The notes under the pieces are model-generated. The model was not told the DNA's origin. It saw only the letters and a program-made list of their open reading frames with translations, and did not search any database. Source: Natrinema salsiterrestre (lineage in GTDB: Archaea; Halobacteriota; Halobacteria; Halobacteriales; Natrialbaceae). Taken from it: a DNA stretch of 64,000 nt. The number at the start of each line of letters is the position of its first letter. Positions within the stretch are counted from its first letter, which is position 1. The stretch lies in contig NZ_JAMQOT010000001.1 of assembly GCF_029502005.1 (NCBI RefSeq), positions 620,001 to 684,000 on the forward strand. Direction: 5' to 3'. Position numbers and translations under genes: made by a program. This document shows positions 55,558 to 59,677 of the stretch, one piece after another.

Positions 55558-56538
55558 TCAGTCGGTCCGACGGCGTCGATCGACCGTCGACGGATCGATC
55601 CGGAACGCGTTCAGATTCGCGTCGACGAGCCGGTCCGTCGAACAGTCGGCGTTGACGACGATCGTCCGGCCGTCGCGCTCGAGTGACCCGGTGCGGACGG
55701 TGTCGACGCCGGTATCGGCGTCGTCGAGCGCGGCACGGACGCGATCGGTTGAGAGTCGATCCGGATCGCCGACGAGGCCGTATTGAAGGACAGTTCGGTC
55801 GCTCTCCTCGCGAACCGTCGCTCCCGCGCCGATCGCATCGACGGCGCCGACGAGGGGCGCGAACGGACTCGATTCCGCCGCGAGGACGGTCGACAGGACG
55901 TCGCTGCTCGCCGGACCGAGGGCGACCGCGGTGATCGCGTCGCCGTCGAGCACTCGCTCGAGGTGACGGGTTGCGGCGGGCGTGGTTCGGCGGTCGCGGC
56001 TCGTCGCGGTCGCCTCGCGAACGCCGAGACGGGCGTCGACGGTTTCGAGAGCGGTTCCGGGGCCGTACCCGAGAACGATAGTCGACCCTCGGTGTCCGAC
56101 CGCGACTCGTCCGTCGCCGGAGACGAACCGCTCGAAATTCGCCCGCGAACCGGCGGCCGCGAACGACCGCTCGCGGAGTTCGTACCGGATCGCATCGGCA
56201 TCGAACGAGCCCGTCGCGATCACCGTCCCCGCCACGAGTCGGTCGCCGGCGATTCCGCCGGTTCCCGTTACGGCGTCGATATCGGCGAGCGAGACGGCAC
56301 CGAGCCGCTGATCGAGGAGCCTAACGTACGGTTCGAGTCTCCCGGGAACCCCGGCAGCGCCGATCGCGGTCCGGTTTGCACTGACGGATAGTGTGGTCGG
56401 GGCGGAGACGGTCCTCGCGGGCCGTGCTCGCTTCCGTCGGGCAGACTGCGCAGTCCCTGCGAGCGAGCGACCGGCGAGCGCGATGCTTCCGGCGACCGCT
56501 CCCGTGATCGTTCGAACGATCGATCGTCTCGAGACCAT
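55558..56538 (-). CDS. Tat-exported protein of unknown function
   Basis: 326 residues. The start has a twin-arginine signal, SRRSIVRTITGAVAGSIAL, with a cleavable region near residue 30 (LAGTAQS). The body is alanine/valine/arginine-rich, beta-alpha, with few aromatic residues and no catalytic motif I can identify: for example GDRLVAGTVIATGSFDADAI and VSGDGRVAVGHRGSTIVLGY. It is exported or cell-wall bound. Only seen as an unnamed haloarchaeal protein. It lies downstream of the DUF92 gene on the same strand with about 115 bases between. Confidence 0.7.
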   Translation of the reverse strand: MVSRRSIVRTITGAVAGSIALAGRSLAGTAQSARRKRARPARTVSAPTTLSVSANRTAIGAAGVPGRLEPYVRLLDQRLGAVSLADIDAVTGTGGIAGDRLVAGTVIATGSFDADAIRYELRERSFAAAGSRANFERFVSGDGRVAVGHRGSTIVLGYGPGTALETVDARLGVREATATSRDRRTTPAATRHLERVLDGDAITAVALGPASSDVLSTVLAAESSPFAPLVGAVDAIGAGATVREESDRTVLQYGLVGDPDRLSTDRVRAALDDADTGVDTVRTGSLERDGRTIVVNADCSTDRLVDANLNAFRIDPSTVDRRRRTD

Positions 56539-56654: not shown

Positions 56655-57980
56655 TCAGCCCAGCATGGCAACCGACAGCACCAGTATCGCGCAGGCGAGC
56701 GCCCCCGACAGCGTGGCGAGGAAATTCACGCCCTGATTCCCCAGGAGAGAGCCCTCGAGCGTCGCGCCGAGCAGGCTGTCGACGGTCATTCCGACGACGC
56801 CGGCGGTGGCGATGATCGCCGCACCGACGAAGTCGACCGGCGGAAAGAGCCCGTACGCGATGCCGGCGACGACGCTCGCCCCGGCGATGCCGACGAGTTC
56901 GCCCTGCCAGGTGACGCCGCCGTCGGTCCCGGGATCGACCGGCTCGAGGGTCGTGATCAGTCGCGGCTGATCGAACACGCTGCCGATCTCGCTCGAGAGG
57001 GTGTCGCTCATCGCGGTCGCGATCGAGCCGGCGAAGGCGAAGAGGAACAGTTCGGGCTCGCGGGGCAGGAGGCCGGCGTCGCTGGCGGCGTAGCCGAGCA
57101 CTGCGACGAGCGCGACGGCGGCGTTCCCGAGGACGTTGCCGCTCCCGCGCGCGCCGTTGTTGTCCTCCGCGACGCCGAGGGCCTGCTTGCGGTCGTAGCG
57201 GAACTTCGTCGAGAGGCCGCCGATGGCGAAAAAGGACAGCAGGACGACGAACCAGCCGTAGCCGCCGAGGACGATGGTCAGCAGCCCGAGTAACACCCCA
57301 GTGAGCATCCCCGCGACGGAGGCCGTCTCGAGGGCGTACGACGCGTACCCGAACCCGACCGTGATCGCGAGTGCGAGGCCGACCTCGGTCGCACCGGTGG
57401 CCGGCTCGAGTTCCGCGAGCAGCCAGAGCAGGAGGCCGACCGAGAGGACGACGATCGGATCGTCCGACCGCAACAGCACGTCGCGGAGGAGCGCGGCGAG
57501 CAGTGCGCCGCTGGCGGCCAGGAAGACGAGCGTCGGCAGTATCGACGCGACGGCGGTCCCGAGGAGCCAGTGGGTGAGCACCTGTCCGACGACGGCCGCC
57601 GCGGTCGCCGCGAGGCAGAACCCGGCGACGCGGACGACCGAATCGTCCGTTCGCAGTCGGAGGAGTTGCTCGCCGAAGTTGCCGTAGCCGACGAGCAGTA
57701 TCGTCCCCACGAAGACGGCGACCGGCATCGACGCCGCGGTCGCCATGAGACCGAGGGCGACCCCCGCGAGGACGAAGGTGATGAGGCCGTAGAGCCGCGA
57801 GTCTTCGTAATCGCCGGGGTACGCGAGGAGATCGAAGACGGGGCCGTCGGTGACGACGTAGGCACCCAGCAGGACGACACCGGCGAGCGCGGCACCCACC
57901 CGGGGACCGAAGAGCGGAACGGCGAGCGAGAGCGTACAGAGGATCGCGAACACGCCGGCTCGCCGAACGGGTGCAGTCAC
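56655..57980 (-). CDS. DUF92 family integral membrane protein (candidate polyprenyl-phosphate kinase)
   Basis: 441 residues with about 13 hydrophobic helices, in two halves. The C-terminal half (about 215-441) has the DUF92 core: GGLSTKFRYDRKQALGVAED, RGSGNVLGNAAVALVAVLGY, AMSDTLSSEIGSVFDQPRL and GMTVDSLLGATLEGSLLGNQ. The plant and cyanobacterial relative VTE6 is a phytyl-phosphate kinase, so a CTP-dependent prenyl-phosphate kinase is the best functional guess. Next to two cis-prenyltransferase-type genes, a role in making the lipid carrier for glycosylation is likely. The N-terminal half is a second membrane module of unknown role. Divergent from the degenerate cis-prenyltransferase gene. 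Confidence 0.85.
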   Translation of the reverse strand: MTAPVRRAGVFAILCTLSLAVPLFGPRVGAALAGVVLLGAYVVTDGPVFDLLAYPGDYEDSRLYGLITFVLAGVALGLMATAASMPVAVFVGTILLVGYGNFGEQLLRLRTDDSVVRVAGFCLAATAAAVVGQVLTHWLLGTAVASILPTLVFLAASGALLAALLRDVLLRSDDPIVVLSVGLLLWLLAELEPATGATEVGLALAITVGFGYASYALETASVAGMLTGVLLGLLTIVLGGYGWFVVLLSFFAIGGLSTKFRYDRKQALGVAEDNNGARGSGNVLGNAAVALVAVLGYAASDAGLLPREPELFLFAFAGSIATAMSDTLSSEIGSVFDQPRLITTLEPVDPGTDGGVTWQGELVGIAGASVVAGIAYGLFPPVDFVGAAIIATAGVVGMTVDSLLGATLEGSLLGNQGVNFLATLSGALACAILVLSVAMLG

Positions 57981-58142
57981 GATTATCGATGCTTTTCTGT
58001 GGCGTTTACTTCAAGCTTCGTGAACCAGCCTCGAGCCGATTTTCACCACCTTCAGGCGATTGAAACGGTATTTTATCGTCTACGCCGGTGTCGAACGGTT
58101 GGACCCGTAACCGGTATACTGTCGGCCGGGAAAGTCACGAGC

Positions 58143-58748
58143 GTGGGACTGTACGAACGGTATCTGGCCCTCCGAATCCGCCGTCACGAGGCCGACCCGC
58201 CCGATCACGTCGCGCTCGTGATCACCGAGCGCGACCTGCTGGAACAGGGAGCCTACGAGACGCTCACCCGCTTTTTCGAGTGGGCCGTCGAGTACGCCTC
58301 ACAGATCACGGTCTACGTGAGCGTGCTCGACGCGGCGGCGGTGCCGCCCCTCCAGCGCGAACTCGAGACGATCGACGCGCCGCGGCCGATCGCCGTTCGC
58401 GGACCGGAGGACAGGGCGCGAGCCGACGCACCGATCCGGATCGGGATCGGTCTCGGCGGCAAACACGAGTTCACCAGCGCGGTCCAGACGCTCGCCGAAC
58501 GCGTCGATGCGGGCGAGCTCGACCCGGACGAGATCGACGACGAGCACGTCGAGGAGCACCTCGTCTTCCCGTCGGAGCCGGACCTGGTGATCAAGACCGG
58601 CGCGGAACGCCTCTCGGACTTCATGATCTGGCAGTCGGTCTACTCGGAGCTGTACTTCACCGACGTGAACTGGCGTGACTTCCGCAAGCGGGACTTTCTG
58701 CGTGCGGTTCGGGAATACTGCAATCGATCGCGACGGTACGGTCGCTAG
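58143..58748 (+). CDS. Degenerate cis-prenyltransferase homologue (predicted inactive subunit)
   Basis: 201 residues from a GTG. It aligns along its length with the neighbouring synthase, but catalytic residues are gone: HVALVITERDLLEQGAYETL replaces HVAVIQDGNRRYARRQGDDA (no DGN), and VIKTGAERLSDFMIWQSVYS replaces LIIRTGGDERTSNFLPWHAN. The dimer-forming end, FTDVNWRDFRKRDFLRAVREY, is kept. That pattern is what is known for the non-catalytic partner (Nus1/NgBR) of heteromeric cis-prenyltransferases in eukaryotes, and two-subunit enzymes have also been reported in Methanosarcina. Its stop shares the bases CTAG with the stop of the active synthase on the other strand. The function as a partner is inference. 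Confidence 0.85.
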   Translation: MGLYERYLALRIRRHEADPPDHVALVITERDLLEQGAYETLTRFFEWAVEYASQITVYVSVLDAAAVPPLQRELETIDAPRPIAVRGPEDRARADAPIRIGIGLGGKHEFTSAVQTLAERVDAGELDPDEIDDEHVEEHLVFPSEPDLVIKTGAERLSDFMIWQSVYSELYFTDVNWRDFRKRDFLRAVREYCNRSRRYGR

Positions 58749-59677
58749 TCGGCGATCCGGCTGCTCGAGTCGCCCGTCTCGAGCTCCTCGGCGTCGGGTC
58801 GTTCGGTCGACGGAAGCGAGTCGCGAAAGCGGTCGACGACCGAGCGGGCTTCGGCGAGCTCCGGTTCGCTGATGGCGCCCAGCAGGGCCAGCGCACGCCG
58901 CGCCCGCGTCCGCCGCCAGGATTCCTCGCGGTATTCGTACGTGCGGATTCCCCGGAGGAAGTCGGCTTTCGAGAACTCCGGCCAGTAGGGCGTACAGAAG
59001 AAGACGGCCGCTTCGTTGCCGTTCGCGTGCCAGGGGAGGAAGTTCGAGGTGCGCTCGTCGCCGCCGGTCCGAATGATGAGGTCGACGTCGCGCACCGGCT
59101 GATCGTACAGGCGGCGTTCGATGTCCTCGACGCCGATGTCGTCGGGCTCGAGATCGCCGTCAGCGACGCCTTCGGCGACCCCGCGGGTTGCGTTGAGGAG
59201 CCGCGACCGGCCGCCGTACGCGAGCGCGATGTTCAGGACGAACTGATCGTAGCCTCGAGTCCGGCGCTCGGCGTAGTCGACCGCATCCCGGACCCGCTCC
59301 GGGAGCATGTCGGTCTCGCCGATCGCGCGAATACAGACTTCGTTCTCGTGGACGCGATCGGCCTCCGCGAACTCGCGGAGTTTCTCGCAGAGGAGATCGA
59401 ACAGGGCCTCGTTTTCTTCCGCCGGGCGTTCGAAGTTCTCCGTCGAGAACGCGTACAGCGTCAGTTCCTCGACGCCGATGTCCTGACACCACTCGAGCAC
59501 GCGCTCGGTCGTCTGGGCACCGGCGCGGTGCCCGTCGTGTGCGTCGTCGCCCTGTCTCCGAGCGTACCGTCGGTTCCCGTCCTGAATCACCGCGACGTGG
59601 GTCGGTGCGCCGGAGATTTCCCTGGAGAGCAGGCGCTCGTATGCCGCGTCGACGCGCTGACGGAGCCACCGCTTCAT
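58745..59677 (-). CDS. uppS: Cis-prenyltransferase (undecaprenyl/dolichyl diphosphate synthase family)
   Basis: 310 residues. The signature HVAVIQDGNRRYARRQGDDA (about 27-46, catalytic Asp33), LTLYAFSTENFERP (about 72-85), LNIALAYGGRSRLLNAT, and the diphosphate-binding LIIRTGGDERTSNFLPWHAN (about 195-215) are all intact. It adds cis-isoprene units to make the polyprenyl carrier for protein glycosylation and lipid-linked intermediates. The final 45 residues are a haloarchaeal extension rich in Arg, Glu and Ser. ATG 59677 is clear (MKRWLRQRVDAAY). Partner candidate: the degenerate paralogue that meets it tail to tail. Confidence 0.95.
   Translation of the reverse strand: MKRWLRQRVDAAYERLLSREISGAPTHVAVIQDGNRRYARRQGDDAHDGHRAGAQTTERVLEWCQDIGVEELTLYAFSTENFERPAEENEALFDLLCEKLREFAEADRVHENEVCIRAIGETDMLPERVRDAVDYAERRTRGYDQFVLNIALAYGGRSRLLNATRGVAEGVADGDLEPDDIGVEDIERRLYDQPVRDVDLIIRTGGDERTSNFLPWHANGNEAAVFFCTPYWPEFSKADFLRGIRTYEYREESWRRTRARRALALLGAISEPELAEARSVVDRFRDSLPSTERPDAEELETGDSSSRIAD

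Follow-up and report, generated by a model that had tools for sequence, protein, structure and literature searches.

In humans, cis-prenyltransferase (CPT) activity is divided between the catalytic chain DHDDS, which has no C-terminal RXG motif, and NgBR (NUS1), a helper whose C-terminus carries RXG and one further residue (the human protein ends RLGK). NgBR touches the substrate and the catalytic arginines of DHDDS through its RXG backbone and its terminal carboxylate, and not through the side chain of its last residue (PMC7573591). In the bacterial homodimeric UppS, on the other hand, a single chain carries both RXG and the catalytic loop. Among archaea, the proteins MM_0618 and MM_1083 of Methanosarcina mazei are described as a heteromeric CPT forming C45-50 products (Emi et al. 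2019, as presented in PMC8131916). For the membrane protein family DUF92 a study from 2015 reported a remote similarity to cytidylyltransferases, and both the genomic context shared with uppS and an isoprenoid kinase step were already proposed for archaea in that study (PMC5898192). Furthermore, VTE6 has been described as a phytyl-P kinase (PMC10849223).

The window, i.e. the whole analysed stretch of 64,000 nucleotides from Natrinema salsiterrestre, encodes a probable two-subunit architecture like that of M. mazei, which belongs to the same phylum, next to a DUF92 protein (Table 1). The first-pass annotation had described these as a cluster of three neighbouring genes. Their neighbourhood and coordinates were confirmed. 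They do not form an operon, the DUF92 and helper genes being divergent and the helper and CPT genes convergent. The convergent arrangement does not imply co-expression of the two subunits; it is conserved among relatives, the 4-bp overlap of their genes is not. A scan of the 162-bp spacer for sigma-70-type promoters, a model unsuited to archaea, gave no match. Among the genes that flank the trio are that of the archaeal DnaG and, at the opposite end, one for a siroheme decarboxylase. Adjoining DUF92, a 326-aa protein with a signal-like N-terminus (window positions 55558-56538, minus strand) had no match in Pfam or NCBIfam. The nearest named relatives are Natrinema spp., with 95% identity in the helper.

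Table 1. Features of the CPT locus in the window (positions counted from the first nucleotide of the window).
Feature	Position	Strand	Remark
DUF92 integral membrane protein, 441 aa	56655-57980	-	PF01940 match
Divergent spacer between DUF92 and helper gene, 162 bp	57981-58142		
Helper, degenerate cis-prenyltransferase homologue, NgBR/Nus1-like, 201 aa	58143-58748	+	GTG start
Codons of the helper C-terminal tail NRSRRYGR, with RXG	58722-58745	+	read from sequence
CTAG common to both convergent TAG stop codons	58745-58748		4-bp overlap
CPT, catalytic cis-prenyltransferase subunit, DHDDS/UppS-like, 310 aa	58745-59677	-	

The catalytic subunit matches PF01255 with an E-value of 2e-67 (residues 31-252) and scores 232.8 bits against TIGR00055. 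Its catalytic motifs, which are the same as those of the bacterial UppS, are all present (DGNRRYA, FSTEN, RTGG..R.SNF and YGGR), in agreement with the earlier description of the protein as active-site complete. They are invariant or nearly so in relatives, DGNRR being found in 67 of 67 catalytic chains and FSTEN and R..SNF in 59 to 65 of these. At the place where the bacterial homodimers carry RXG, however, the protein reads RE.SWRR, which is followed by a C-terminal extension of about 55 residues, and RXG was absent from the homologous place of the catalytic chains. Four matches to a regular expression for RXG in catalytic chains were rejected as they represent RRG at a non-homologous site in the later extension. 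The CPT profile aligned with the human DHDDS chain 6z1n_A over profile positions 4-291 (3.6e-57), a match that reaches farther toward the C-terminus of CPT than those to the bacterial enzymes and takes in part of the extension.

A full catalytic copy was detected in all haloarchaeal genomes searched (n=145) but one, the draft G072, in which only the helper and no full-length catalytic CPT was detected, possibly due to an assembly gap. Four haloarchaeal genomes (G061, G068, G098 and G105) encode a second full catalytic copy elsewhere, and one haloarchaeon encodes a divergent third PF01255 protein (G002:C1:478925-479599, E=2e-29) within an open frame of 622 aa.

In the helper, the match to PF01255 is confined to the C-terminal half (E=5.7e-26; residues 94-197 in a 198-aa translation that starts at position 58152). 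Nevertheless, a profile of 30 haloarchaeal helpers aligned with human NUS1 chains over positions 16-202 of 202 (E=5.6e-6). The AlphaFold model of the helper (pLDDT 83) was matched by Foldseek to cis-prenyltransferases in general, and the NgBR chain was not among the 50 matches listed for it. The catalytic motif DGN is absent from every helper sequence examined, so that the designation as a catalytically degenerate homologue was appropriate.

The helper of the window ends R-Y-G-R-stop, and in an alignment with E. coli UppS the RXG motifs of the two proteins coincide. In 206 of 206 sequences, a set in which some entries are the same genome fetched twice and 81 members (61 haloarchaeal, 20 from other families) were picked by homology alone, the helper C-terminus consists of RXG (KXG once) and exactly one residue. 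This last residue is variable (R, Q, E, K, T, A, L or S), which matches the contacts of NgBR, where the backbone of RXG and the carboxylate at the terminus are involved. In contrast to NgBR with its transmembrane anchor, no N-terminal membrane segment is evident from the sequence of the approximately 201-aa archaeal helper. In place of the catalytic loop a VITE-like motif is located in haloarchaeal helpers (57 of 61) and in human NgBR; its use as a shared derived character was weighed and dismissed, since the same pattern finds it in only 1 of 20 other archaeal helpers. The helpers at three loci of the genus g20 (L125-L127) carry insertions of variable length near residue 90, and neither CPT nor DUF92 is encoded near the helper at these loci.

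The locus thus encodes a catalytic chain with a full active site and a protein of the same fold that has no catalytic loop, and RXG occurs on the latter only. Catalytic loop and RXG, which UppS combines in a single chain, are divided here between two proteins in the same way as in DHDDS and NgBR. Based on the protein sequences, CPT and its degenerate homologue are very probably the catalytic and the accessory subunit of one heteromeric cis-prenyltransferase. The heteromeric enzyme proposed in the first-pass annotation is supported by the divided RXG motif, the exact C-terminus of the helper, the co-occurrence of both genes, their common descent with Methanosarcina-like copies and their convergent order. 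In such a complex IPP and the primer, an allylic diphosphate, would be bound by the catalytic chain. No catalytic loop would come from the helper; instead its RXG-x tail would cross the dimer interface and complete the substrate site of its partner. The product would presumably be a long polyprenyl diphosphate, the precursor of a dolichol-type carrier for N-glycosylation. If so, the mechanism of the tail, which is disrupted in a human NUS1 disorder, could be dissected in genetically tractable haloarchaea such as Haloferax.

Since RXG is also found in active homodimers, its presence in the helper alone is no proof of a heteromer. CPT might work as a homodimer while the degenerate protein plays a separate, e.g. 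regulatory, role, as purification of human DHDDS can yield a homodimer, which NgBR stimulates (PMC7573591), and as the genes of helper and CPT are sometimes unlinked. However, the catalytic chain has no RXG at the conserved place while the helper keeps both RXG and a fixed terminus, the helper occurs in every haloarchaeal genome searched, and helper and CPT have been lost together in the family f17 (see below). Taking this into account, a homodimeric CPT appears very improbable. A CPT that regained RXG in a helper-less genome was not found, the only helper-less family, f17, having no CPT.

The helper was detected in 145 of 145 haloarchaeal genomes, representing 58 genera, and in 194 of the 197 genomes of the phylum. 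Exactly two PF01255 matches, CPT and helper, are present in the source genome; together with the universality of the helper in haloarchaea and the near-universality of the catalytic copy this indicates that the pair is not a chance combination. In a maximum-likelihood tree the helpers (100/100) and the catalytic subunits (98/91) formed separate clades, and the bacterial homodimeric UppS formed a branch of its own (99/92). Each of the two archaeal clades contains a window protein together with copies from Methanosarcina-like genomes, and the monophyly that speaks for common descent with the characterised archaeal subunits refers to these copies. The label Methanosarcina-like is derived from a near-identical paralogue of the MM_0014/MA1831 type in the genome G266. 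Third paralogues of the MM_0014 type fall outside the helper and the catalytic clade, and the one in G266 (L239) ends with GG, not with RXG and one residue. The two-subunit CPT, for which biochemistry had been reported in a single methanogen, is hereby extended to essentially the whole archaeal phylum. In the papers covered here we found no experiment on a haloarchaeal pair, and neither this near-universality nor the exact-terminus signature nor the tracking of the helper by DUF92, some of which may be contained in the primary report from 2019.

The conservation of the trio in haloarchaea had been suggested as a check along with the first-pass annotation. Genomes are related, and the following counts are thus not independent. 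In addition to the universal presence of the helper, its gene is linked to DUF92 in 124 of 145 haloarchaeal genomes, always divergently, and to CPT in 111 of 145, where the two genes converge in 111 of 111 cases; helper and CPT are unlinked in the remaining 34 of 145. Outside the haloarchaea, the linkage of helper and DUF92 occurs in nine families in the divergent orientation only, and helper and CPT converge in 10 of 10 linked loci fetched from other families. Among the haloarchaeal genomes with a broken trio, the linkage of helper and DUF92 persists in 15 and that of helper and CPT in 2. The DUF92 gene tracks the helper gene, not the catalytic gene.

This arrangement distinguishes the locus from those of the Methanosarcina-like genomes. 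In the window the genes of both subunits are convergent neighbours and DUF92 lies beside the helper, whereas no CPT was found near the helper at the Methanosarcina-like loci L130 and L131 and the helper was unlinked to DUF92 in the Methanosarcina-like genomes searched. The linkage of helper and DUF92 is missing in many families, including all scorable genomes of the Methanosarcina-like family f12. Two drafts of the family f29 (G234 and G257; 86-88% complete) have a helper and no DUF92 match.

Three genomes of the family f17 (G151, G160 and G169) were found to encode neither CPT nor helper nor STT3/AglB and to have kept DUF92. These genomes are drafts of 86-91% completeness, in which single absences mean little; since the same three genes are absent from all three, incompleteness is unlikely to be the cause. 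Sulfolobus acidocaldarius, which served as control, encodes CPT and STT3 and has no DUF92 match. The losses in f17 and the gene content of Sulfolobus thus reveal that CPT and helper travel with N-glycosylation and that DUF92 does not. The role in glycosylation that had been claimed for the CPT pair is indirectly supported, as the genomes that lost CPT and helper are also without STT3/AglB. The presence of DUF92, however, does not coincide with that of the CPT/glycosylation pathway in either f17 or Sulfolobus.

The DUF92 protein matches PF01940 with an E-value of 1e-58 (residues 206-427) and 199.1 bits, well above the family cut-off of 27.5, which places it in the DUF92/VTE6/arCOG02245 family, VTE6 presumably being a member of DUF92. 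It differs from the family by an extra N-terminal domain and by the linkage of its gene to the helper instead of the catalytic gene. The C-terminal domain (approximately residues 206-441) is conserved, whereas the helical N-terminal domain is poorly conserved and has no Pfam match. K265, D326, E331, D353, D401, N415 and N419 are invariant in haloarchaea; the invariance of the acidic residues D326, D353 and D401 refers to the haloarchaeal DUF92 set. Such a number of invariant acidic and polar residues in the C-terminal domain is as expected of an enzyme. The predicted model is mostly helical (pLDDT 87). Its comparison with PDB folds returned nothing significant, and a kinase fold is thus neither confirmed nor excluded; sequence and profile searches yielded chance matches only. 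An internal duplication of N- and C-terminal half was considered and was unsupported by hhalign.

With regard to its putative chemistry, we see an even chance that DUF92 is a VTE6-type kinase in the membrane which phosphorylates prenyl phosphates and is not restricted to the carrier used in glycosylation. It may supply or recycle prenyl diphosphate. The first-pass annotation had assigned to DUF92 the activation of the dolichol-like carrier for S-layer glycosylation. This function would fit the strong gene linkage in haloarchaea, the kinase activity described for VTE6 and the published idea of an archaeal kinase. In addition, the sole PF01148 match in the genome reads, by eye, like a CDP-archaeol synthase, so no rival dolichol kinase of PF01148 was found there. 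The CPT product, however, is already a diphosphate, and forming the carrier monophosphate requires a phosphatase, not a kinase. Taking furthermore into account that DUF92 is retained in the three f17 genomes without CPT, helper and STT3 and is missing from Sulfolobus despite CPT and STT3, the activation of the carrier by DUF92 seems doubtful and a role as a dedicated dolichol kinase unlikely. The question of DUF92 is thereby narrowed to a protein whose gene is partnered with that of the helper and whose role must extend beyond N-glycosylation.

The linkage might also be inherited synteny without functional meaning, since the arrangement is old, lies amid housekeeping genes and is missing in the many families mentioned above. 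We regard this as no more probable than the activation of the carrier, because the linkage occurs in the nine non-haloarchaeal families in one orientation only and CPT breaks away more often than DUF92. Still less probable is that DUF92 mainly provides a docking site at the membrane for the soluble helper, in place of the transmembrane anchor that NgBR has. The shortness of the helper, its lack of an evident membrane segment and the excess of haloarchaea keeping helper and DUF92 without CPT (n=15) over the reverse (n=2) speak for such docking; the many invariant, enzyme-like charged residues of DUF92 and its persistence without helper in f17 speak against it. A combination of both functions, in which DUF92 and helper represent an ancient unit and the kinase docks on the helper and channels fresh or recycled allylic diphosphate into CPT, is similarly speculative. 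If this were true, the helper would be an adaptor at the membrane that links the supply of primer with the elongation of the chain. Among the f17 loci (L248-L250), the DUF92 gene of L248 is located directly after a gene that reads as a TATA-binding protein.
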